Assembly: GCF_003096835.1 (NCBI RefSeq) | Contig: NZ_QENZ01000004.1 | Coordinates: 248,001 to 312,000, forward strand | DNA: 64,000 nt | Source: Balneicella halophila | GTDB taxonomy: Bacteria > Bacteroidota > Bacteroidia > Bacteroidales > Balneicellaceae | Reading direction: 5' to 3' | In this document: piece by piece, positions 1 through 61,788 of the stretch | Position numbering within the stretch: position 1 is the first letter of the stretch | Layout of the letters: every line of letters begins with the position of its first letter | Translations under genes and position numbers: made by a program | The notes under the pieces: generated by a model | Databases searched by the model: none | The model's input: only the letters and a program-made list of their open reading frames with translations | What the model was told of the DNA's origin: nothing

Positions 1-777
1 ATTTACTAATGGAAAGTACTTTTCTCCCTCTTTGGGAGGACGAACTTCTCCTTCTACTAAATCACCTGTTTTTAATCCTAACAGACGGATTTGGGATTGT
101 GAAATATAAATATCATCAGGAGAATTCAAATAGTTGTAATCAGAAGATCGCAAAAATCCATAACCATCAGGCATGACTTCAAGAACGCCATCAGCAATTA
201 TGCTGCCTGAAAATTCGTATTTAGGATTTTTTCTGCGTTGATTTTGTCTATTGTTTGGTTGATTGTTATGTTGCTGATTCTTATTCTGTTGGTTGTTTTT
301 TGGATTATTATTTTGTGGTTTCTCGTTCGAGTTCTTTTGCTTGTTGGAATTATTTTGTTGATTTGATTGACTCTTCTGCTTATTCTGAGTGTTGTCAGGA
401 TGTTTGCTAGTAGAATCAGTACTTGTACTTGTAGCCTTCTGAGTTTCTTCTTTAGTTTGTCTTTTAGAAGCAGACTTGGAGTTGGTTCTTCTCTTCTTAG
501 AATCATCAGTGTCTGTAGTGTTAGACTTGTTATTGTTTTGCTTCTGTTCGGGCTCTCTTTTTGTAGTTTTACTTCTTGTACGAGAAGGAGTTTTGGGCTT
601 GTCACTCTTTGTTGAGGGTTTGTTGGGTTGAGTAGAAGCAACAATTGCTTGTTGATCTAATATTTGATAAATTAAATCTTGCTTTTTATAGCTATCTACA
701 CGTTTGATTTTTAATTCTTTAGCAATTGCTTTTAACTCAGTCAGCAATTTCTTGTTTAGTTCAAGAATATCATACAT
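1..777 (-). CDS. rho: Transcription termination factor Rho, N-terminal part (partial, runs off window start)
   Basis: The first 259 codons of Rho read on the minus strand from the ATG at 777-775. Residues 1-45 look like the Rho N-terminal helical domain (start [12 protein letters not shown]). The RNA-binding cold-shock domain begins near residue 185 ([20 protein letters not shown]) and continues to [11 protein letters not shown] at the window edge; the ATPase domain lies outside. Between them is a roughly 135-residue low-complexity insert, first K/S/T/R-rich, then strongly Asn/Gln-rich at residues 120-183. Rho is a hexameric RNA helicase that terminates transcription. Long disordered inserts at this place are known in Bacteroidota Rho. 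The gene is divergent from rpe. The identification rests on the cold-shock domain and is firm. Confidence 0.93.
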
Positions 778-954
778 ATAAAGTGTGTTTGAATTTTATT
801 TTTAAATAATAATGAAAATATATTCAGAGAATATTATTCTTAATCAGAAGATATACAAATTCTATTGCATTCTGTAATTGTAGTGCAATGATAAGATAAA
901 TTTGAAGAATACACAAAAAAAAGACAAATAAATGGCAGTTTTGTGAGTTATTCA

Positions 955-962
955 TACCTTTG
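955..962 (+). promoter_or_regulatory. Promoter -7 element of rpe
   Basis: TACCTTTG matches the Bacteroidota -7 consensus TAnnTTTG. It lies about 30 bases before the ATG at 993, and transcription would begin around 968. This rules out the upstream in-frame start at 960. No clear TTTG element sits 19 bases upstream, so the -33 part is weak. Confidence 0.6.
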
Positions 963-992
963 TATATCAATTTTAAATTTTTAGAAGAAAAA

Positions 993-1637
993 ATGACTAT
1001 CGTAGCTCCTTCCTTATTATCAGCAGATTTTATGAATTTAGCTGATGCTATAAATATGTTGAACGAAAGTGAGGCAGATTGGCTTCACCTTGATGTTATG
1101 GATGGGCGTTTCGTGCCTAATATAACGTTTGGAATGCCTATAATTTCACAAATGAAGGCTTTGACTGATAAGCCATTAGATGTGCATCTGATGATTGTAG
1201 AACCTGAGAAATATTTAGAAGAATTCTGCCAAGCAGGAGCAGATATTTTGACTGTACATGCTGAGGCTTGCGTTCACTTACATAGAACGGTAATGAAAAT
1301 TAAGGAATTAGGAATGAAAGCAGGCGTATCGTTAAATCCACATACACCCGTAGAATTGTTAAGAGACCTTGTTTCTGAAATCGACTTAGTGCTTTTGATG
1401 TCTGTTAATCCTGGATTTGGAGGGCAATCGTTTATTGAGAATACTTACAATAAAACCCGAAGAATGCGTGCTATCGCTGACGAGCAGGGTACACCTCTGA
1501 CAATAGAAATTGACGGTGGTGTTACAGACAAAAATGCATTGAAGCTCGTGGAAGCTGGTGCTGATGCTCTGGTAGCGGGTAGCTATGTCTTTGGAGCTGA
1601 TGATCCTAAGGCACGGATAGCTTCCTTGAAAGTTTAA
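993..1637 (+). CDS. rpe: Ribulose-phosphate 3-epimerase
   Basis: This enzyme interconverts ribulose 5-phosphate and xylulose 5-phosphate in the cytosolic pentose phosphate pathway. The 214-residue protein has the full TIM-barrel pattern of the family: PSLLSADF near the start, HLDVMDGRFVPN (metal-binding His and catalytic Asp), DVHLMI, the MSVNPGFGGQ phosphate loop and the second catalytic Asp in EIDGG, ending with the AGSYVFG segment. I chose the ATG at 993 because the TAnnTTTG promoter at 955-962 overlaps the longer reading frame and because homologues begin just before PSLLSADF. It stands alone, divergent from rho. Confidence 0.96.
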   Translation: MTIVAPSLLSADFMNLADAINMLNESEADWLHLDVMDGRFVPNITFGMPIISQMKALTDKPLDVHLMIVEPEKYLEEFCQAGADILTVHAEACVHLHRTVMKIKELGMKAGVSLNPHTPVELLRDLVSEIDLVLLMSVNPGFGGQSFIENTYNKTRRMRAIADEQGTPLTIEIDGGVTDKNALKLVEAGADALVAGSYVFGADDPKARIASLKV

Positions 1638-1769
1638 AAGTAATCATATTATTAAATTTAAGTATTTAGGAACTATTCAGTGATTAATGTGACTGAGAGT
1701 TTCTTACTTTTATGTCCTATAAAAGGACTTCTATTTGAATTATACTAATCGTTGCCAACCATTATTAAA

Positions 1770-4262
1770 ATGAATCATATAAAACACTTACTTATTTATA
1801 TAATCCTCGCTGTAGCAACTGTCCCTGCGTTAGCACAGCCCACCAAGATAAGAGGAACTGTAATTGATGCAACAACTAAAGAACCTATTCCTTTTGCTTC
1901 AGTAGTATTTGTAGGTACAACTATAGGCGCTTCTACAGATTTTGATGGAAATTATTTCTTAGAGACAAGAGAAGATGTAGATTCTGTAGAAATAAGCTAC
2001 ATAGGTTACTTGGAACAAATCATTCCAGTTAATAAACATGGTTTTAAAACCATAAATGTTGCGTTGCAGGAAAATACAGCGATGCTCGATGAAGTCGTAA
2101 TTGTAGCTGATAAACATCGAGAAAATCCGACTCATCGAATAATTAGAGGCATTATAGCTAATAAAAAACGTAACAATCCAGAGCGCTCGAACTCTTTTCA
2201 ATATGATAGTTATACTAAAATGGAGATGAGCCTGACAAACATCAACGAAAAATTTAAAAAGAAAAAGTTGTTGAAGGATTTCAATTTTGTATTTGATTAC
2301 GTAGATACTTCTGCACTTACAGGTAAGGCATATTTACCTTTTATGATTTCAGAAACGAAATCAGAAGTGTACCATTCAAATAACCCAAAACTTACAAAGG
2401 AGATTATCAAAGCAAACAAGATATCAGGATTTGATGGAGATAATGCTAGTGTAAGTCAATTTACAGGACAATTATATCAAGATTTTAATATTTATGATAA
2501 TTATATCCTTCTTTTTGAACAGGGTTTTATAAGTCCATTTAATTCCAGTGGCTTGTTGTTCTACAAATATTATTTGACCGATAGCATTCAGCGAGACAAT
2601 AAACTTCAATACAACATTTCTTTCCAGCCTAAGAATCCAAAAGATGCTACATTTACTGGAGAGTTCTGGGTTACGGCTGATGACTTTGCAGTGACCAGCG
2701 TGAAGATGAGAATCAACAATAAAGTGAATGTAAACTGGGTAAATGATGTGATGATTTCCGAAGAGTTTAATTTGATGGAAGATTCTATATGGTTCTGGAA
2801 AAACCGAAAATTGACCGTTGATTTTATGCTGTTAAAAAAGGACACTACACAACATAAAGGATTCTTAGGAACAAGTACGATTCATTTTGATAATGTGGTT
2901 TTTAATAAACCGATGCCAGAGCAATTTGCAAAAGCTAAGAATAATATACTTATTGATGCAGAAGTTTATGAAAAGGGAGATGATTATTGGGATGAAGCTA
3001 GACCATACGAACTTTCAAAATCAGAGAAAGGTATTTATGAAATGGTAGATTCCATAAAAAGTGTACCTATTTATCAGACTTATGTGGATATTATCTCTAC
3101 AGTACTTACGGGTTATTATGATTTCGGAGATTTTGAAATAGGACCATATTATAAATTACTGAGTTTTAACGATATTGAGGGTACTCGTTTTCAATTTGGT
3201 GGACGGACTACAAGTGACTTCAGTTCAAAAATTCGGCTTTCTGGGCACCTTGCCTATGGAACTGACGACAACGAATGGAAATATGGTATTGGGACACTCT
3301 ATAAATTTAGTGAAAAGAATGATTTGTGGGAGTCCGCAAGTGTCAACTACACGCATGATATGGAGCAGTTGGGGAAAGGAAGTAGTCCATTTTTAACTGC
3401 AGGAAATATCCTTGCTTCTTTGCTTTCTCGTGGTGATACTGACAAACTAACCTTACAAAATGAATTGAATTTAAACTATGAAAAAGAATGGGTAGAGAAT
3501 TTCTCTACCAAACTGACATTTCGTTATAAGGAGTTAATACCTTCTGATTATGTGCCCTTTACACCAGCAAACGATGTGGATAATTTAATTGGTGAGTCTA
3601 TAAAGACAAACGAGATTGAATTGAGTACACGCTGGTCGCCTAGGGCAAAGGTCATCCGAAGGACTTTCAGTCGAATGCAAATAACGAGCAGTTTACCAAT
3701 TCTAAACTTAAAAATGGCAGTTGGATTAGGTGATTACAAATACCAAAAAGTTGATTTTTTAATGGAGCATACATTGCCAGTATATCCAATTGGTCATACT
3801 TATTACACTCTAAGAGGAGGAAAAATATTTGGTGATGCACCCTTTCCGTTATTACATTTACATGAAGGGAATGAAACTTATGTGTATGATACCTATGCCT
3901 ACAATCTTATGGATTATTATGAATTTGCTAGCGATACTTATGCAAGTATTGGTGCAGAACATCATTTCATGGGATTCTTATTTAATAAAATCCCTCTGTT
4001 AAAGAAAATGAATTTACGTACAGTGGTCACAGGAAAGGCACTATGGGGAACATTAAGTGACAATAATAATAGAATGAATGCACCGCTACTTTTCCCTGAA
4101 GGGTTGAGCGATTTATCCAAGCCCTATTTTGAAGCAGGTGTAGGTATTGAAAACATTTTTAAAATAGCTAGAATAGATGCAGTTTGGCGTCTATCCCATA
4201 GAGACACACGTTCTGATATTGATAAGTTTGGCATTCGTGCTACTTTACAGTTGACTTTTTAA
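1770..4262 (+). CDS. DUF5686 family outer-membrane protein with carboxypeptidase-regulatory-like N-terminal domain
   Basis: The predicted protein has about 830 residues. A signal peptide spans residues 1-22, ending VPALA before QPTK. A carboxypeptidase-D-regulatory-like beta-sandwich follows at about 25-107 (IRGTVIDATTKEPIPFASV, then DGNYFLE), as in SusC/TonB-type proteins but without a TonB plug. The rest is rich in aromatic, alternating strands and ends in a terminal Phe (TLQLTF), typical of an outer-membrane beta-barrel. The arrangement matches the Bacteroidota DUF5686 family, whose exact function is unknown. A TTG at 1752 could extend the frame, but the ATG at 1770 gives a cleaner signal peptide. 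lptB begins 29 bases downstream, so co-transcription is likely and fits an envelope role. Confidence 0.82.
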   Translation: MNHIKHLLIYIILAVATVPALAQPTKIRGTVIDATTKEPIPFASVVFVGTTIGASTDFDGNYFLETREDVDSVEISYIGYLEQIIPVNKHGFKTINVALQENTAMLDEVVIVADKHRENPTHRIIRGIIANKKRNNPERSNSFQYDSYTKMEMSLTNINEKFKKKKLLKDFNFVFDYVDTSALTGKAYLPFMISETKSEVYHSNNPKLTKEIIKANKISGFDGDNASVSQFTGQLYQDFNIYDNYILLFEQGFISPFNSSGLLFYKYYLTDSIQRDNKLQYNISFQPKNPKDATFTGEFWVTADDFAVTSVKMRINNKVNVNWVNDVMISEEFNLMEDSIWFWKNRKLTVDFMLLKKDTTQHKGFLGTSTIHFDNVVFNKPMPEQFAKAKNNILIDAEVYEKGDDYWDEARPYELSKSEKGIYEMVDSIKSVPIYQTYVDIISTVLTGYYDFGDFEIGPYYKLLSFNDIEGTRFQFGGRTTSDFSSKIRLSGHLAYGTDDNEWKYGIGTLYKFSEKNDLWESASVNYTHDMEQLGKGSSPFLTAGNILASLLSRGDTDKLTLQNELNLNYEKEWVENFSTKLTFRYKELIPSDYVPFTPANDVDNLIGESIKTNEIELSTRWSPRAKVIRRTFSRMQITSSLPILNLKMAVGLGDYKYQKVDFLMEHTLPVYPIGHTYYTLRGGKIFGDAPFPLLHLHEGNETYVYDTYAYNLMDYYEFASDTYASIGAEHHFMGFLFNKIPLLKKMNLRTVVTGKALWGTLSDNNNRMNAPLLFPEGLSDLSKPYFEAGVGIENIFKIARIDAVWRLSHRDTRSDIDKFGIRATLQLTF

Positions 4263-50324: not shown

Positions 50325-51545
50325 ATGTTATACTATTTATTCAGATATCTTAATGAATTAGACGTTCCCGGTGCTGGAATGTTTGATTACATTTCATTTC
50401 GTGCAGCTATGGCATTGCTATTCGCTCTGATGATAGGAACCCTTTTTGGAAAAAAAATCATTAGAATGTTGCAACGCCAGCAAATTGGAGAAGAAATACG
50501 TGATTTGGGATTGGAAGGGCAGATGCAAAAAAAAGGTACCCCTACCATGGGTGGTCTCATTATAGTGTTGTCAATATTGATTCCAGTACTGCTTTTTACG
50601 AAATTAGATAACATCTATATTATTTTGATGGTAATAACGACAGTTTGGCTCGGTGCATTAGGTTTTCTTGATGATTATATCAAAGTGGTAAGAAAAGATA
50701 AAAGCGGTCTTTCCGGAAAGTTTAAAGTTGTTGGTCAGATCGGTCTTGGACTCATAGTCGGGCTCACTTTCTTTATGAGTAATGACATTGTTGTACGAGA
50801 ACAACTACCCACGGAAATACAAAGTAGTGTGGGGAAATCTAGCCAAACTACAACGATAGATGTAAAAAGTACAAAAACAACCATTCCCTTTGTTAAAAAT
50901 AATGAATTAGATTATTCGAAAATTGTTTCTTTTGCAGGTGAATATCAAGAAATATTGACTTGGATACTTTTTGTTTTCATTGTTATTTTTATAGTAACAG
51001 CAGTTTCCAATGGAGCCAATATGACTGATGGATTAGATGGTTTAGCTACCGGATCGTCTGCAATTATTGGAAGCACTCTACTCGTTTTTGCCTATGTTTC
51101 CGGTAACTTCATCTATGCGAATTATCTGAATATAATGTTTATACCTCACACTGGTGAGTTAGTGGTCTTTATGGCAGCCTTCGTAGGTGCTATGATAGGT
51201 TTTCTTTGGTATAATGCCTATCCTGCTCAAGTGTTTATGGGGGATACAGGGAGTTTGACCATTGGTGGAATCATTGCAGTCTTTGCAATTATGATTCGCA
51301 AAGAATTACTTATCCCAATACTTTGTGGTATTTTCTTGATAGAAAATCTCTCTGTGATCATGCAAGTTTCCTATTTTAAATACACTAAAAAGAAGTTTGG
51401 TGAGGGAAGGCGTATTTTTAAAATGTCTCCATTGCATCATCATTTTCAGGTACAAGGATTTCCAGAGCCCAAAATAGTAACTCGCTTTTGGATTGTTGGA
51501 ATCTTTCTAGCGGTACTCACAGTTATTACCTTAAAAATGCGTTAA
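50325..51545 (+). CDS. mraY: Phospho-MurNAc-pentapeptide transferase MraY
   Basis: This polytopic membrane enzyme transfers phospho-MurNAc-pentapeptide to undecaprenyl phosphate, giving lipid I. The 406-residue protein has [10 protein letters not shown], the [19 protein letters not shown] segment, [28 protein letters not shown] and the HHH motif in [10 protein letters not shown] polar insertion (about 155-200) is common in Bacteroidota. It ends 2 bases before the murD remnant. Confidence 0.97.
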
Positions 51546-51547
51546 AT

Positions 51548-52060
51548 ATGATGATTAAAGAAAAAAATATAAATAATCCATTCATCAATTTAGTTAATTA
51601 TAAGATGATGGCAGCCAAAGAGGCACAATATGCAGAACAATTTGCTGACATGAAGAATGAGCCCAAGCGATTAGAATATTTTCTATCCCTGCGAGGGATT
51701 AATTTTATAGATGATACCAAAGCTCAGAGTATTAATGCAATTTGGTATTCTTTGGAAAGCATGCATTGTCCGGTTACGCTTATTGCTAAAGATATAGATG
51801 ATTTACAAGAATTGCTAAAATTAAAACAACTTTTGATGCTAAAAGTTAAAGGAATTGTTTTTTTGACTCCAAAGAGAAAATACATCAAATTGTTACGTCC
51901 TATGGTCGGCGCTATACATTTTTCCAAAACTATGGATGAGGCTGTAAGTTGGGCATATAAAAATACGGAAAGCGATGATGCTGTGCTGTTTTGTGCGGGA
52001 GTAAAAGTTGATGTGGATAAAGAAAGCAGAATTTTTCAAGAGGCTGTGAGAAAGTTATAA
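51548..52060 (+). CDS. MurD C-terminal-domain-only protein (degenerate MurD)
   Basis: This 170-residue protein occupies the murD position between mraY and ftsW. Residues 10-36 resemble the end of the MurD central domain. Residues 40-72 match the start of the Mur ligase C-terminal domain: KRLEYF for the family HRLEF, INFIDDTKAQS for INDSKATN, and WYSLESM for the YALE helix. The remaining order of strands and helices also follows MurD (TLIAKDIDD, KVKGIVFLTP, TMDEAVSWAYK). The N-terminal UDP domain and the ATP-binding central domain are absent. The C-terminal functional motifs are lost (GG-DKG; SPACASFD-F; RG--F). It is an intact frame in a tight operon, so it may be kept for a non-catalytic role. 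Confidence 0.75.
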   Translation: MMIKEKNINNPFINLVNYKMMAAKEAQYAEQFADMKNEPKRLEYFLSLRGINFIDDTKAQSINAIWYSLESMHCPVTLIAKDIDDLQELLKLKQLLMLKVKGIVFLTPKRKYIKLLRPMVGAIHFSKTMDEAVSWAYKNTESDDAVLFCAGVKVDVDKESRIFQEAVRKL

Positions 52061-53352: not shown

Positions 53353-54453
53353 ATGAGGGAGCCTAAAATAATCATAAGTGGAGGAGGTACAGGAGGACAT
53401 ATTTTTCCTGCTGTTGCTATTGCCAATGCTTTGAGAGAAGCCCTGCCAGATGCACAAATTCTTTTTGTTGGTGCCGAAGGAAAGATGGAGATGGAACGTG
53501 TACCCAAAGCGGAATATGATATTGTGGGCTTGCCAATTCGTGGTTTTCAACGCAGTAAACCTGTTACATTGCCTATAACTTTGTTTAAACTTCTTAAAAG
53601 CCTTCGTATGGCAAGGAAGTTATTGAAGAAAGAAAATCCAGCTGTGGTCGTAGGTGTAGGTGGTTATGCCAGTGCGGCTGTTCTCCATCAAGCGGCTAAA
53701 ATGAAGATCCCAACTCTGATTCAAGAACAAAACTCATATCCGGGGATTACAAATAAACTACTTGCTAATAAAGCAAAGAAAATCTGTGTTGCTTATGATA
53801 ATATGGAGCGATTTTTTCCAAAGGAGAAGCTTTTTTTTCTAGGCAATCCTATTCGTCAAGATTTATTAGATAAAAATATAGATAAAGTTGAAGCATTTAA
53901 ATATTATGGGCTAGATAGTACAAAAAAGACTGTATTAGTCGTTGGTGGAAGTCTGGGAGCAAGAACTCTTAACGAGAGTTTGAAGAGAAATTTAGACTTT
54001 TTAGGAAAACAAAATTTCCAAATTATTTGGCAATCAGGTGCTTACTATTATGAGCAGTTGAAAGGACAGATTAATGATACTTGTCCATCAAATGTGCATT
54101 TATTTAAATTTTTAGATAGAATGGATTGGGCATACAGTGTTGCTGATATAGTAGTTTCACGTGCTGGAGCCCTAACTATTTCAGAATTAAGTGTTTTAGG
54201 GAAATCAACGATTCTTGTGCCTTCGCCTAACGTTACTGAAGATCATCAGACTAAAAATGCAATGGCGCTAGTGAAAAAAGAGGCAACCATATTGGTTAAG
54301 GATGAAGATGCAGAGCAAAATTTAGTACCGAAAGTAATACAGCTCATGAAGGCTGAAGAAAGGCGTAAGCAATTAGCTACACAAATATTGTATTTTGCCA
54401 AACCCAATGCCGCCAATGATATTGCAAATGAAGTCATTAAACTGATGAAGTAG
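53353..54453 (+). CDS. murG: UDP-GlcNAc:lipid I N-acetylglucosaminyltransferase MurG
   Basis: It adds GlcNAc to lipid I to form lipid II at the inner membrane face. The 366-residue GT-B enzyme has the N-terminal SGGGTGGHIFPAVAIANAL, GVGGYAS, LIQEQNSYPGITNKLL, LGNPIR, VVGGSLGARTLNE and the UDP-site VSRAGALTISEL with PSPNVTEDHQTKNA. All family motifs are intact. The next gene, ftsQ, starts after only 2 bases; murC, usual here, is absent. Confidence 0.97.
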   Translation: MREPKIIISGGGTGGHIFPAVAIANALREALPDAQILFVGAEGKMEMERVPKAEYDIVGLPIRGFQRSKPVTLPITLFKLLKSLRMARKLLKKENPAVVVGVGGYASAAVLHQAAKMKIPTLIQEQNSYPGITNKLLANKAKKICVAYDNMERFFPKEKLFFLGNPIRQDLLDKNIDKVEAFKYYGLDSTKKTVLVVGGSLGARTLNESLKRNLDFLGKQNFQIIWQSGAYYYEQLKGQINDTCPSNVHLFKFLDRMDWAYSVADIVVSRAGALTISELSVLGKSTILVPSPNVTEDHQTKNAMALVKKEATILVKDEDAEQNLVPKVIQLMKAEERRKQLATQILYFAKPNAANDIANEVIKLMK

Positions 54454-54455
54454 GT

Positions 54456-55214
54456 ATGAAGAGAAACCTAAAAAAAATATTATTATTTGGATTGCCATTA
54501 GTTTTACTTCTGGTGTATCTCGCTTTCGCCTTTTTTAGAATTGGACAAGAGGAGAAAGTGTTTAAAGCAAATGGTATTGTTGTGGAAATGACCAATCCTC
54601 AATTTAAGTTTGTTAATAAAAAAGAGATACTAAAGATTGCAGAAAAACAACTTGGAAATACTAAAGATGTAAAATTAGATAGCATTAATAAAAATAGCTT
54701 AGAATCAGCCATAAATAAAAATCCCTTTGTAGAAGATGCACAAGTATTTCGTTCTTCGGACAATGCTTGCAGGATTGAAATAACACAACGCAGTCCGGTA
54801 TTGCGTGTATGGACAGATACAGCATCTTATTATTTGGATAAAGATGGTTACAAAATGCCTACGGGAACAAAATATGCTGCTTTAGTACATATGTACCGAG
54901 GAAATATCTCAGAGTCCTTTGCGCAAAAGGAATTATTACAATTTCAAGCCTATTTGGATGATCATTCTTTTTGGTCTGAAATGATTGATTATATTATGGT
55001 TAATTCTAAAGAAGAATTAACTTTGTATCTGAGGGCAAAATCAGGAAAAATCCATTTGGGTAAGCCTGATAATGTTGCTGAAAAGTTAGAAAAATTACTC
55101 CTTTTTATCAATAAGGTAGGCAAGTTTAATGGTTTGGAGACTTATGAAACCATTGACTTGCGATATGATAACCAAGTAGTAGTTAAAAAAAAGGAAGCTA
55201 ATGCAACGAGATAG
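54456..55214 (+). CDS. ftsQ: Cell-division protein FtsQ
   Basis: The 252-residue bitopic divisome protein has a short cytoplasmic N-terminus and one membrane helix (about 9-27). A periplasmic POTRA-like region follows (about 45-105, including LESAINKNPFVEDAQVF), then a beta domain with TQRSPVLRVWT, the usual FtsQ motif. Its position before ftsA supports this. It overlaps the ftsA start by 14 bases. Confidence 0.88.
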   Translation: MKRNLKKILLFGLPLVLLLVYLAFAFFRIGQEEKVFKANGIVVEMTNPQFKFVNKKEILKIAEKQLGNTKDVKLDSINKNSLESAINKNPFVEDAQVFRSSDNACRIEITQRSPVLRVWTDTASYYLDKDGYKMPTGTKYAALVHMYRGNISESFAQKELLQFQAYLDDHSFWSEMIDYIMVNSKEELTLYLRAKSGKIHLGKPDNVAEKLEKLLLFINKVGKFNGLETYETIDLRYDNQVVVKKKEANATR

Positions 55215-56433
55215 AGTAATATGTATAGATATAGGTTCCCACTCGATAAAAGCTGTAGTTGGAACAAAGTCATTTGAAGGGCATGAAATTATTGATGCAA
55301 CTTTAGTGCCTGCACAAGGTGTTGCTTATGGGGTCGTCAATAATGTTGAAAAGTTTACTGCTAGTATTAAAACAGCATTGAAAAATGTAAAGGCAAAAGA
55401 GAACGACTTGATTATTGTTGGGGTGAGCAATTATTATGTAGAGAGCTTTAGGACGCCACAACAAAAGTTTATTGCTGAGGGAAAAAAAATTGACCATAAT
55501 GATTTAGATGAGTTATATGAGAATGCTGAGAATGCCTATCTCAAAGTAGAATTGGTTATGCTTGATGTATTCTTACAGCACTATAATGTTGATGAAATAA
55601 AAGGAATCCAGAATCCTTTGGATATGGAAGGTATTAAGTTAGAAGGTATTTATAATATTTTCTCTTGTAGCAAAAAACTTATTTCTAATATAGAACAATG
55701 TGTAAATAATGCAGGCTTTGATGTCGCAGAGTTCATTTTCAGTCCTTATTATGCCTCTAAAGTGATTTTCACAGAAGAAGATAAGGAAACAGGCGTACTG
55801 GTTATAGATCTTGGTGCTGATGTTACTAGAATCTCCTTGTTTGTAGATGGCGCTATGTATGCATCCTTTGCCGTACCATTTGGCAGTCAAAGTGTCACCC
55901 AAGATATTAAGAGTAGCTATCCCGTAACGATGAAGCAAGCTGATGCCTTAAAAAAAGATTTTAGTCATGCCCTGGCTGACCTGGCTGAGGAAAATGCAGA
56001 GGTAAGTTTCTCTTCAGCAGATGCCTGGGGAGGTCGAAGTTTACGAGTTAGTCAATTATCAGCCGTCGTGCAATGTCGGTTAGATGAAATTTTCAGAGGA
56101 ATAAGTTACCAGTTGCGCAAAATGGGATTAGATGATTTTGTAGAGTCAATCACTCTTGTAGGAGGCGGAGCGTTACAAAACTCAATGAAAGAATTTTTAG
56201 AAAAGAAATTTGAGGTTCCCGTTAGGGAAGCAAAGCTAAGAGAAGATGTATTTGTAGATAATAAAAATTTATCTGCTTTGTATTATGCCAATGCTTTGGG
56301 AATGCTACACTATATGATAGATGAGGAGATTGAAAAAGAAGCTAATAACCAGTCTGGGTTTTTTGAAAAAATATCTACAGGATTGCGTAGTTTATTTGGA
56401 AGTAGAGGCAGTGGTGATGATGCAAAAATGTAA
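55201..56433 (+). CDS. ftsA: Cell-division protein FtsA
   Basis: The 410-residue actin-like ATPase tethers FtsZ to the membrane. The phosphate-binding loops are CIDIGSHSIKAVVG (about 8-21) and VIDLGADVTRISLFVDG (about 200-216), and the adenosine loop is LVGGGALQNSMKEFLE. The C-terminal amphipathic helix GFFEKISTGLRSLFG is the membrane anchor. The 1C region looks diverged from typical FtsA (for example VGVSNYYVESFRT), which could match the unusual FtsZ pair downstream. Confidence 0.92.
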   Translation: MQRDRVICIDIGSHSIKAVVGTKSFEGHEIIDATLVPAQGVAYGVVNNVEKFTASIKTALKNVKAKENDLIIVGVSNYYVESFRTPQQKFIAEGKKIDHNDLDELYENAENAYLKVELVMLDVFLQHYNVDEIKGIQNPLDMEGIKLEGIYNIFSCSKKLISNIEQCVNNAGFDVAEFIFSPYYASKVIFTEEDKETGVLVIDLGADVTRISLFVDGAMYASFAVPFGSQSVTQDIKSSYPVTMKQADALKKDFSHALADLAEENAEVSFSSADAWGGRSLRVSQLSAVVQCRLDEIFRGISYQLRKMGLDDFVESITLVGGGALQNSMKEFLEKKFEVPVREAKLREDVFVDNKNLSALYYANALGMLHYMIDEEIEKEANNQSGFFEKISTGLRSLFGSRGSGDDAKM

Positions 56434-56445
56434 AAATAAATAGAA

Positions 56446-57798
56446 ATGGAGTTGCAAATAAACGAGGATTATAAAGAAGAATCTTCCCATAATATAATTA
56501 AGGTAGTTGGTATTGGTGGCGCTGGTAATAATGCCGTAAACGATATGTATGAGCGTAAGGTTGATGGCATCGATTATGTAGTTTGCAATACCGACATACA
56601 AGATTTAAACCATAGTCACGTACCGCATAAATTGCAAATAGGCGTCCGTCTCACAGAGGGATTGGGTGCCGGAAGTATCCCACAATCAGGGAAAGATGCT
56701 GCAGAGGAGAGTGAAGAAGCAATAAGGGAAATGTTAGGAGGAACTACTAAGATGGTTATCCTCACTGCAGGCATGGGTGGTGGCACAGGAACTGGAGCTA
56801 CACCCGTTGTTGCTCGTATAGCTCAAGATATGGGACTCGTTGTAGTATCTATCGTTACTACACCGTTTGGTTTTGAACGCCAGCGATTGAAAGAAGCAGT
56901 TATTGGAATTGAAGTCTTAGAAGAAGTCTCTGATGCACTTTTAATCATCAATAATCAAAAACTGCAACGAATGTATGGTGACTTGTCATTTCCTGAAGCT
57001 TGTGGAAAAGCAAATGAAGTTTTGGTGATGGCAGCTAAGAGTATTTCTGAAATTGTTACAAAAACAGCCGAACAGAATATTGATTATGCTGACTTAGAGC
57101 GTATGCTTAGGGGAAGTGGAATGGCTGTCTTCGGAGTAGGAAGTGCTAAAGGAGGTGAGGATCGCGTCGGTGAGGCGATAAAAGCCGCTTTATACTCTCC
57201 ACTTTTAGACAATTGTGATATTTCTGGAGCGAAAAGCTTATTAGTCAATATTGTATTAGGAGAGAAGCGATTATCTGTGCAAGAGCGCCGTAATGTAGGC
57301 GTCTATATGCGACGTATGGCGGGTAGCTATCATGAAATGAAGCATGGAACCCGTATCGATGAGAATTTAGCGTCAGATGAACTGGTTATTACAATTATTG
57401 CAACGAATTTCTCTGAAAATGAATTAGGCATAACGACCAGAACAGAAGAAGCTATTCCTGCGCACCCCATTGATGTAGAGCATGAGGAAGATAATGATTG
57501 GATGAAAGTAGAGGATGCTCATAAATTGGAAGAAAAAGCAAGAAGAAATCGTGAGCGTAAAGAAAAGCAACGCCAAGCTCGCTTAAAAGCTAAAGAAGAA
57601 GCAGAACGTAGAGCACGAGAAAAGGCATCAATCCCTAAACCAGAGATAGAACAAGAGATTGAGGAAGTAGGAGCTAAACGACCTGATCCAATTGAAAAAT
57701 TGAAAAAGAAAAAAACATCAACGAAGAGAGGCGGTGGAATGCAACAACTGATAGACTTTTTCGGAGGTACTGATGTGAGAGATGATGTTGAGATGTAA
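56446..57798 (+). CDS. ftsZ: FtsZ paralogue 1, intact GTP-binding loop and long charged C-terminal extension
   Basis: The 450-residue tubulin homologue has the first GTP loop GGAGNNA intact at 24-30, the glycine signature GGGTGTG at 111-117 and the T7 catalytic loop NIDYAD at 211-216. The C-terminal half (about 200-330) is diverged from Bacteroidales FtsZ: the T7 context is [13 protein letters not shown] rather than VNVDFADVxTVM. Residues about 350-400 form a strongly charged Lys/Arg/Glu helix, then a K-rich tail ending [16 protein letters not shown] do not recognise the usual C-terminal FtsA-binding peptide. The second ftsZ begins 11 bases downstream. Confidence 0.93.
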
Positions 57799-57809
57799 AC
57801 TTAATATTT

Positions 57810-59057
57810 ATGGAACGTAGCGTTATTGATATGATTACAGATAAGCAACATGCTTCTATCATCAAGGTGGTGGGGGTTGGGAGTTTCGGTGTTCGTGCTC
57901 TAAATTATATGTACGAAAAAGGAATAAAAGGAGTTGACTTTTTTGTATGTAATACGGATATGCACGATCTCAACAAGAGTAAAGTTCCCGTTAAAATACC
58001 TATTGGTACCAAAACTCTTGAAGGCTTTGGTGCTGGAGGAGATCCTAAAAAAGGTGAACAAGCCGTCATTGAAGACCACGAGAAAATTGATGAGATTTTT
58101 GAGCAATATGCTAAAATGGTTTTTATTGCCGCAGGTATGGGGGGAGGCACCGGAACAGGTGCTGCTCCTATGATAGCTAAAATTGCCAAAGAAAGAGGAT
58201 TGCTTACAATCGCAGTGCTTTCATTGCCACCTATTGATGAAGGTGAAGCACGTATGGAAGTGGCTCTAAATGGCATCAGAGAGGTAGCAAAGTACGCGGA
58301 TTCAGTTTTGATTATCAATAATGAAAAAGTTTTTGAATTGGCTGATTCTGAAGACAACTTTTTTGAAGCTAAAGAAAGTGTCTATAGAGTGTTAAATACA
58401 GCCGTAAAAGGCATTTCTGAATTAATCACCGTACATGGACATATCAACCTAGATTTTGCTGACGTGCGTACAGTTACCTTAAATTCTGGAGTTGCTGTTA
58501 TGGGTGCTGCAACTACCTCGGGTCCAGATAGAGCCTTAGAAGCAATAAAAAAGGCATTAACCTCGCCACTGCTAATGAGTAGTGATGTACGTAAAGCAAA
58601 ACAGATTCTTTTGAATATATCATTCAATCCATCGCCAGAACATGCTATTAAATTAACAGAATTGGATTATATTGCTAATTATGTAGATAGTGCAATTGGT
58701 GAAGATGCAAATATTATCACAGGAGTGAATTATGATGAAAGTCTAAACGACCAAGTATCTGTAACGATTATTGCAACAGGTTTTGAATTGGAAGGTGTTT
58801 TAGACAAACGCTACTTGTCAGTGAATGTAAATCCGTTTGGCTCTGTAGCAACACCAACAGCCAAAGCTGATAAAGATGATACTGGAAAAGTGCCTATTTT
58901 TGAAGGAGAAAGGGTGTGGGTGACTCCTTCATTAACAGAGGCGCAGATTTTGGAACTCACAAAAGAGCCAGCACACAAAAGAACACAGTCTAAGATTTTT
59001 TCAAAAAGACGTTTTAATGGTCCGGTCAAGAAATATGAATTAAAAGAAAAAGAATAA
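57810..59057 (+). CDS. FtsZ paralogue 2, degenerate first GTP-binding loop
   Basis: The 415-residue second FtsZ is aligned residue for residue with the first over the N-terminal 117 positions. The loop at 24-30, GGAGNNA in paralogue 1, is GSFGVRA here, losing the Gly and Asn contacts to the nucleotide. GGGTGTG at 111-117 is intact, and the T7 loop NLDFAD at 213-218 keeps both catalytic Asp. Its C-terminal half (ELITVHGHINLDFADVRTVT, then SPLL, KQILLNIS and VSVTIIATGF) is closer to typical Bacteroidales FtsZ than paralogue 1 is. The tail is basic and ends KKYELKEKE. It could be a partner subunit or regulator of paralogue 1. Confidence 0.92.
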   Translation: MERSVIDMITDKQHASIIKVVGVGSFGVRALNYMYEKGIKGVDFFVCNTDMHDLNKSKVPVKIPIGTKTLEGFGAGGDPKKGEQAVIEDHEKIDEIFEQYAKMVFIAAGMGGGTGTGAAPMIAKIAKERGLLTIAVLSLPPIDEGEARMEVALNGIREVAKYADSVLIINNEKVFELADSEDNFFEAKESVYRVLNTAVKGISELITVHGHINLDFADVRTVTLNSGVAVMGAATTSGPDRALEAIKKALTSPLLMSSDVRKAKQILLNISFNPSPEHAIKLTELDYIANYVDSAIGEDANIITGVNYDESLNDQVSVTIIATGFELEGVLDKRYLSVNVNPFGSVATPTAKADKDDTGKVPIFEGERVWVTPSLTEAQILELTKEPAHKRTQSKIFSKRRFNGPVKKYELKEKE

Positions 59058-59595: not shown

Positions 59596-61788
59596 ATGGC
59601 GCACATTAGGTTTAGAGCTGTCGAAGAAGCTCAAAAAAGAGAATTACAATCAATAGTAGAAAATTGTGAAAATATATCAGACATCTACGGAGTAAATGTT
59701 TTGATTGTAAGAAAATGAGAAACTATCTTGAGAAAGATGCTTATGAGAGTGTGATAAATGCTATAGATGAAGGAAGAAAAATAGACAGACCGCAAGTCAA
59801 GTAGCATCGGCAATGAAAACGTGGGCAATGGAAAGAGGAGCTACCCATTATGCGCATTGGTTTCATCCATTGAATGGTGCTACTGCAGAAAAACATGATG
59901 CATTCTTTTCCCTCACAAAAGATGGTAATGCCGTAGAAAGTTTTAATGGAAATTTATTGGTGCAACAAGAACCCGATGCATCAAGTTTTCCGAATGGCGG
60001 TATTCCTAATACCTTTGAAGCACGTGGATACACTGCTTGGGATCCATCTTCACCCGCGTTTGTCTTAGACCAAACACTTTGTATTCCCACTATATTTATT
60101 TCCTATACAGGAGAAGCACTAGATTTTAAAACGCCATATTTAAAATCACTTTTAGCCATTGACGAAGCAGCTACTGAGGTTTGCAAATTCTTTAATAGGG
60201 AGGTGAAAAAAGTGCAAGTAACGCTGGGTTGGGAACAGGAATACTTTTTAGTAGATGAAGCACTTTATAATGCACGTCCTGATTTAGCACTTTGCGGGCG
60301 TACCTTAATGGGACATTCAGCGGCAAAAGACTAACAGCTTGATGATCATTACTTTGGAGCCATTCCAGAGCGTGTGAGTATATTTATGCGACACTTTGAA
60401 CGAGAAGCTTATAAACTAGGAATACCTGTAAAAACTCGCCATAATGAAGTAGCACCTAATCAGTTTGAGTGTGCACCAATTTTTGAAGAAGCGAACCTTG
60501 CAGTTGATCATAATCAGTTAATTATGTCTTTGATGGAGAAAATTGCCCATAAGCATAAATTTAAAGTCTTATTACACGAAAAACCTTTTAAAGGAATCAA
60601 TGGTTCTGGAAAACATTGTAATTGGAGTTTACTTACTGACACGGGTGTAAATTTATTATCCCCGGGAGGCACTCCAAAAAATAACACCCAATTTCTAGTT
60701 TTTTTAGTAAATACGATAAAGGCAGTGTATGACAACAGCGGTTTATTAATCAGTAGTATTATTGATGCAGGAAATGCACATCGTTTAGGTGCACAGGAAG
60801 CGCCACCAGCTATCCTTTCCGTATTTATAGGTAGAACACTCGATCAACTTTTGAATGATATTGAAAATAGTATTGCTATCGACGAAATGAGTTCAGAAGA
60901 GAAAACAGAGCTTAAACTCGATATTGCAAAAATTCCAGAAATACTTTTAGATAATACTGATAGAAACAGTACTTCTCCATTTGCATTTACAGGCAATAGA
61001 TTTGAGTTTAGAGCAGTCGGCTCTACACTACAGCTAACTGTGCATCACCGCTCACGATTTTGAATACCGCTGTCGCTCATCAATTGAATAGTTTCAAGAA
61101 ACGTGTTGAGGATTTGGTTAAATCAGGCGTGAAAAAAGACGAAGCTATTTTAAAGTCTATTCGCAAAGTAATTATTGAGTCCAAGAACGTTCGTTTTGAA
61201 GGTAATGGATACAGTCAAGAGTGGTTTGATGAAGCCCTTCGCAGAGGTTTACCTAATATTCCTAGTGCAGTAGAGGCATTCAAGGTCTTTAAAGATGCAT
61301 CTTCAGTGAAAATACTGACGGATTATGGAGTGTTGAGTGAACGTGAGTTAGAGGCACGTTTTGAAATCAACAACGAGATTTATACGAAGGTTGTTCAGAT
61401 AGAGGCACGTGTGCTTGGTGACTTATCAATAAACCATATCATTCCAACAGCTATAGCTTATCAAAATGTTTTAATTACTAACGTTAAGGGAATTAGAGAA
61501 TTATTTTCTGATGATGAGGATTATCAAAATCTCGCCGGATCACAATTGAAGAGCATTAAAAAGATATCTAAACATGTAAAAGCTATAAGAGAAATGGTGA
61601 AAGAATTGGTGGAAGTTCGTAAAGAATCTAATGCTATTACAGACCTACCAGAACAGGCAAAAGCATACTCGACGAAAGTAAAACCATATTTGGAAAAAAT
61701 CCGCTATCATATTGACAAATTGGAATTGATTGTTGATGATGAGATGTGGACGCTTCCAAAGTATCGTGAACTCCTTTTTATTCATTAA
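59596..61788 (+). pseudogene. glnN: Glutamine synthetase type III, broken by four lesions
   Basis: Read across frames, this is a full-length (about 730-codon) type III glutamine synthetase: ATP-dependent amidation of glutamate. Homology starts MAHIRFRAVEEAQKR and includes GATHYAHWFHPLNG, EARGYTAWDPSSPAF, GWEQEYFLVDEALY, KTRHNEVAPNQFE, NGSGKHCNWSL, TGNRFEFRAVGS and RVLGDLSINHIIPTA. Four lesions break it: a one-base loss in a T run near 59699-59702; a second frameshift near 59790-59791; an in-frame TAA at 60332-60334 replacing a Gln codon; and a tandem CTACA duplication at 61023-61032. The longest surviving piece is about 240 codons. The decay looks real rather than sequencing error because the lesions are of different kinds. 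Confidence 0.9.

Follow-up and report, generated by a model that had tools for sequence, protein, structure and literature searches.

Tandem FtsZ paralogues with unequal nucleotide pockets and opposite C-terminal tails in the division gene cluster of Balneicella halophila

Analysis of a 64 000-nucleotide stretch of the Balneicella halophila genome (the window; contig NZ_QENZ01000004.1, positions 248 001 to 312 000) revealed two divergent FtsZ paralogues, z1 and z2, encoded in tandem directly behind ftsA. Judged by their sequences, the clearest division of labour between the two appears to lie in their C-terminal tails, and this split recurs in other families. We consider it on balance probable that z1 and z2 build a two-FtsZ division ring with split roles, and this is suggested by their unequal nucleotide pockets, their equal T7 residues, their opposite tails, their position in one gene cluster and the lack of SepF.

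The initial annotation placed two FtsZ paralogues 11 bases apart right after ftsA, and this was borne out by the reading frames and profile scores:

55201 to 56433, forward strand: ftsA (410 aa), TIGR01174 230.9 bits against a cut-off of 175.85
56446 to 57798, forward strand: ftsZ paralogue 1 (z1, 450 aa), TIGR00065 326.6 bits
57810 to 59057, forward strand: ftsZ paralogue 2 (z2, 415 aa), TIGR00065 304.4 bits

Both ftsZ reading frames are intact, with 12 bases between ftsA and z1 and 11 between z1 and z2, and both full-length scores exceed the curated cut-off of the FtsZ equivalog TIGR00065 (295.2 bits). No other FtsZ/tubulin matches occur in this 2.09-Mb, 98 % complete genome, and their AlphaFold2 models each show a confident two-domain FtsZ core whose best PDB match is an FtsZ (TM 0.93 for z1 and 0.92 for z2). 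The two proteins are 40 % identical, and the ungapped N-terminal stretch, first given as 117 residues, extends over 144. An assembly duplication was excluded by this low identity and by the position of the locus inside a 486-kb contig. The division cluster runs murE, mraY, murD fragment, ftsW, murG, ftsQ, ftsA, ftsZ1, ftsZ2. We regard it as very unlikely that the pair serves separate machines, with one FtsZ for division and the other for a different membrane process and no shared filaments; roles of this kind have been assigned to other FtsZ-family paralogues (FtsZ-like families; PMC2875224), but here both genes lie directly behind ftsA in the division operon, both proteins keep the T7 catalytic residues and the FtsZ core, and z2 keeps the C-terminal conserved peptide (CTC).

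Several neighbouring genes are unusual in their own right. The murD at 51488 to 52060, directly after mraY, comprises the C-terminal third only (profile positions 267 to 415 of 441), and a complete copy was not found elsewhere in the genome. Between murG and ftsQ (54453 to 54456) murC is absent, whereas it is present there in family f106 and other relatives, and the genome's sole MurC/Mpl-like ligase (G000:C3:321123) falls short of both thresholds (murC 250.8, mpl 193.9). As murA, murE and murF are normal in this genome without a clear murC, an unusual cell-wall precursor route is indicated. Behind ftsZ2, a glutamine-synthetase-like gene (glnA; 59813 to 61788) is broken by a stop codon in frame near 60332 and shifts frame near 61060, and is either a pseudogene or the product of sequencing error.

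The nucleotide site and the T7 face were compared in an alignment of z1, z2 and 99 other Bacteroidales-type FtsZs, with Staphylococcus aureus numbering. The S. aureus reference core agrees with PDB 3vo8 over the residues used; the residues taken to touch GTP are those generally known from FtsZ structures. The elements concerned are as follows:

56515 to 56535, forward strand: z1 T1 loop GGAGNNA, from the sequence alignment
57076 to 57093, forward strand: z1 T7 loop NIDYAD, with the catalytic N, D and D retained but G205A, F211Y and V214L beside them
57879 to 57899, forward strand: z2 T1 loop GSFGVRA (canonical GGGGxNA), from the alignment with 99 other FtsZs
58140 to 58160, forward strand: z2 T4 loop GGGTGTG, intact in the alignment
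58371 to 58385, forward strand: start of z2 H7, with K and Y in place of the guanine contacts F183 and D187 in the alignment
58446 to 58463, forward strand: z2 T7 loop NLDFAD, fully canonical in the alignment

The change of the T1 loop from GGAGNNA to GSFGVRA, to which the initial annotation had drawn attention, is genuine: all 99 other FtsZs have G21, G23 and N25, and 96 of them have G22, and a local frameshift was excluded as neither alternative frame restores the motif. Our analysis further revealed that z2 has lost the guanine contacts F183 and D187, so that 6 of the 16 listed GTP contacts are changed (G21S, G22F, N25R, T133S, F183K and D187Y), while the T3 glycines, T4, P135, E139, R143 and N166 are retained. 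Three of the 16 differ in z1 (G22A, F183C and D187N), which also has a one-residue T5 deletion after E139; the z1 nucleotide site, previously described as intact, thus appears mostly, though not cleanly, so. We file z2 as an FtsZ homologue with an atypical nucleotide site rather than as a proven GTPase, and ordinary nucleotide binding has probably been lost, although some binding or an altered base preference is possible since T4, N166, E139 and R143 are intact. A stronger form of the latter idea holds that z2 binds nucleotide through its intact T4, either with changed base specificity or with the nucleotide trapped and non-exchangeable as in the N-site of alpha-tubulin, in an obligate alternating z1/z2 heteropolymer. 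This we judge unlikely: the changes are confined to guanine-facing and T1 residues and T133S, with T3, T4, P135, E139, R143 and N166 spared, but with G21S, G22F and N25R the damage also reaches the T1 loop, which faces the phosphates, and is not restricted to the site of the base.

On the opposite face, the T7 motif NxDxxD was correctly read in both proteins, with N208, D210 and D213 present in z1, z2 and all 99 others. Ninety-six columns are at least 90 % conserved, 72 of them up to residue 202 and 24 beyond it (T7, H8 and the C-domain). Changes in z2 fall at 16/72 and 0/24 of these columns, respectively (Fisher p = 0.0096), whereas in z1 the two halves are affected to a similar degree (16/72 and 5/24, p = 1). 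The damage to z2 is one-sided and that to z1 is not, and the 'complementary degeneracy' originally proposed for the pair is not fully supported, as z1 has had its own guanine pocket hit. The more family-like C-terminal half ascribed to z2 is reflected in the Pfam FtsZ C-domain score (73.6 bits against 63.3 bits for z1).

A degenerate pocket beside a fully conserved T7 face, as seen in z2, is the expected look of a partner that contributes only its T7 loop. The idea of a GTP-poor subunit supplying T7 to its partner, put forward at the outset, agrees with this pattern, but the end-capping of filaments by a subunit with a dead pocket fits it too. In the latter case a sub-stoichiometric pseudo-FtsZ, z2, would dock by its T7 on z1:GTP at one filament end, stimulate hydrolysis there and block the next subunit, and would so control the length of filaments, in a way somewhat akin to an inbuilt MciZ or SulA. 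Such a capping and turnover regulator is a credible minority reading: exactly one longitudinal face of z2 is ruined and the other is perfect. However, the only CTC is on z2, which is full-length and encoded 11 bp behind z1, suggesting a structural role, and the CTC-bearing copy in three other families (f72, f31 and f85) keeps a full pocket.

The two proteins differ most clearly behind the core:

57499 to 57627, forward strand: z1 charged linker (residues 352 to 394), one long helix in the structure model
57739 to 57795, forward strand: z1 extreme C-terminus (last 19 residues), after the basic stretch KKKKTSTKR, FtsA-MTS-like by tail scores, no CTC
58935 to 58982, forward strand: z2 CTC, TEAQILELTKEPAHKR, from the tail alignment (consensus ...ELExxPAYxRK)

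The CTC, through which FtsZ binds FtsA and other partners, ends ...ELTKEPAHKR in z2. Across the tandem sets of the window genome (family f1) and of families f22, f31, f69, f72, f85 and f106, the CTC is found in 0/23 upstream copies and in 19/19 downstream (last) copies, against 75/88 single-copy FtsZs; rows within one family are not independent, so that seven families underlie counts such as 0/23. In most upstream copies, a basic stretch precedes a short run of aromatic or hydrophobic residues and an acidic end, as in NWLKRKIGTLFSDEE and FYRKFGGLFDDDDQAV. The ftsA product of the window itself ends in an amphipathic segment of the membrane-targeting type (SGFFEKISTGLRSLFG), and each tail was given its mean local alignment score over a set of 82 non-redundant FtsA tails, most of which come from the same order. 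The C-termini of 402 other long reading frames served as controls (median 15.8, 99th percentile 19.0, maximum 20.1). The 23 upstream FtsZ tails score 17.8 to 24.6; FtsA tails compared with one another score 23.5, downstream FtsZs 16.4 and single FtsZs 17.2. The window z1 tail scores 19.6, a value reached by 0.2 % of the controls, and 20 of the 23 upstream tails are within the top 0.2 % of controls or higher. Reversal lowered the score of all 23, and the composition-shuffle z had a median of 4.3 for upstream and 0.0 for downstream tails. Weak matches (background fraction 0.04 to 0.07) were z1 of f85, z1 of f106 locus L103 and z2 of f31 locus L077; that of f85 is the weakest, its aromatic/basic segment being further from the C-terminal end. 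The amphipathic moment was rejected as evidence of a membrane helix when taken alone, since it differed significantly from that of single-copy tails yet mostly failed to exceed composition shuffles, and we therefore relied on the FtsA-tail comparison with its reversed and background controls. The upstream tails thus resemble FtsA membrane-targeting tails in a function-like manner, which in such short, simple sequences would not imply descent.

Tandem ftsZ, with two or three genes close together, was found in 20 of 393 Bacteroidales genomes from 8 families, the window genome included. The expectation that most Bacteroidota have one ftsZ at this position thus stands as a majority rule, to which these pairs and triplets are exceptions. 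Seven of the eight families, that of the window and at least six others, have an upstream copy without the CTC, and the order is ftsA-z1-z2 wherever the full gene order was read. Family f91 was left out of the pattern, as another gene lies between its two nearby ftsZ and the second copy is decayed. At locus L100 (genome G192, 736 to 3741), a second, decayed ftsZ copy with damaged T3 and T4 and no CTC lies behind a YqeY-like gene and is a recent separate duplication. In families f31 and f69 (L077, L092, L093 and L094) three ftsZ stand in a row, the first two without the CTC and the last with it. Genome G326 (L111 and L112) has a dispersed pair about 147 kb apart, one copy with and one without the CTC, and the latter has the best FtsA-like tail among non-tandem FtsZ copies. 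Beyond Bacteroidales, a sample of 198 genomes from across the phylum included 48 Bacteroidia genomes of other orders, one of which had a second FtsZ match, and many genomes of family f136, among the phylum-level relatives, have two or three FtsZ-profile matches.

The window's own family consists of one genome. Among the genomes compared, the nearest to it by rpoB bit score (G105, 78 % identity), and also by path in the tree, is in f106, a family which shares the order ftsA-z1-z2. Pocket erosion in z2 is shared in part: all four f106 z2 copies have two or three changed contacts (G104A/T and D187N, with T133S in three) and f22 z2 has G107K in 4/5 genomes, compared to an average of 0.54 changed contacts in single-copy FtsZs, while such changes are essentially absent from the tandem sets of f72, f31, f69 and f85. 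In none of these six families is the T1 loop destroyed, and their cores are far nearer to ordinary FtsZ. Six rare residues are common to the z2 of the window and of f106, against 0 to 3 shared with other groups. A phylogeny with Bacteroidales FtsZ gave long branches, and an AU test on the core tree rejected neither orthology with the f106 pair (p = 0.20) nor recent duplication (p = 0.28); constrained trees for orthology, recent duplication and swapped orthology were not separated (AU p 0.20 to 0.64), leaving both a shared and a separate duplication compatible with these branches. A contig scan for close relatives of z2 matched ordinary FtsZs only, and none in viral contigs.

The tree branches of z1 and z2 (2.2 to 2.5 against a median of 0.43) would also suit a degenerating duplicate, both copies drifting under relaxed selection in a small-genome lineage, with z2 heading for loss and z1, or neither, specialized. 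Other decay in the genome (the murD fragment, no clear murC and the broken glnA) would accord with such drift, yet we think it quite unlikely, as z2 is unchanged at the 24 conserved T7 and C-domain columns, both proteins keep the T7 catalytic residues, neither gene has a frameshift, the tail split is common to six other families and z2 pocket erosion to f106 and f22.

Under the favoured reading of a ring with split roles, z1:GTP would form the filament and tether itself to the membrane, while z2 would dock its T7 face onto the GTP of a z1 subunit, trigger hydrolysis there and link the filament with FtsA by means of the cell's sole CTC. SepF was not found in the genome, which leaves FtsA as the likely adaptor. 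The pocket of z2 itself would bind GTP weakly or not at all, so that the interfaces above z2 would not cycle with GTP, and z2 would either alternate with z1 as a non-hydrolysing subunit or end filaments. Of these, a stoichiometric z1/z2 co-polymer is slightly favoured because z2 holds the sole adaptor peptide. Counted against the split-role ring are the intact T4, N166, E139 and R143 of z2, the changes in the z1 pocket (F183C and D187N), the retention of the T7 catalytic residues by z1, which under strict alternation could have decayed if the interfaces above z2 never cycled, the three weak tail matches, and a tail amphipathicity that composition alone explains in most single cases. More tentatively, and with distinctly less confidence, the pair may form an obligate heteropolymer in which one FtsZ binds GTP and tethers itself with an FtsA-type helix and the other, a pseudo-GTPase, gives only its T7 loop and FtsA-binding peptide; every second interface would then hydrolyse GTP, and a tubulin-like two-subunit logic would have arisen within FtsZ. 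The likelihoods that we attach to the favoured reading and its rivals overlap, since several rivals share the split-tail part.

The analogy with alpha/beta-tubulin drawn by the initial annotation is a looser fit than plastid FtsZ1/FtsZ2. It captures two subunits with unequal nucleotide sites and a loop of one partner acting on the nucleotide of the other; however, both tubulins bind GTP, which z2 probably does not ordinarily do, and the fold and motifs of z1 and z2 are those of FtsZ. In plastids two FtsZs share one ring, FtsZ2 keeping a C-terminal peptide for the membrane adaptor ARC6 and FtsZ1 of land plants having lost the ARC6 interaction and bearing a short C-terminus that binds membrane and contains an RR/KLFF motif (PMC11285052). 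The likeness lies in one self-tethered and one adaptor-tethered FtsZ, which for the Bacteroidales pair is predicted from sequence; the origins are separate, and the Bacteroidales tail resembles an FtsA membrane helix with an acidic end. To our knowledge, plants show no comparable wrecking of the GTP pocket of one partner. One FtsZ of Odinarchaeota is tethered to the membrane by its own amphipathic helix and the other through an adaptor on its C-terminal tail, and both interact in vitro (PMC12583498). In Odinarchaeal and haloarchaeal FtsZ1/FtsZ2, however, tethering involves an N-terminal helix and the adaptor SepF, and the genes are located elsewhere, whereas the window pair has its helix-like segment at the C-terminus, in a genome that lacks SepF. 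The engineered FtsZ-YFP-mts carries an added C-terminal membrane-targeting helix. This construct, with a membrane helix of its own, has served as a substitute for FtsA on membranes (PMC5979038). It is artificial, whereas z1 is a natural FtsZ without the CTC that apparently has such a tail and stands beside a CTC-bearing partner. The combination of an FtsA-like C-terminal tail with a ruined pocket in the partner sets the window pair apart from the plastid, Odinarchaeal and FtsZ-YFP-mts systems, while the tandem sets of f106, f22, f72, f31, f69 and f85 match it in tail split and, where read, in gene order. A search restricted to the open literature yielded no account of tandem ftsZ from Bacteroidota.

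In summary, our findings suggest that bacteria too, beyond plastids and archaea, have repeatedly split FtsZ into self-tethering and adaptor-tethered partners, and that in the window pair one partner went on to lose its GTP pocket. The pair offers a natural test of how far the functions of the ring depend, subunit by subunit, on binding GTP, hydrolysing it or attaching to the membrane. It is also a natural equivalent of the FtsZ-mts construct from reconstitution work, and it bears on how a homopolymer becomes a two-subunit polymer, as in tubulin.
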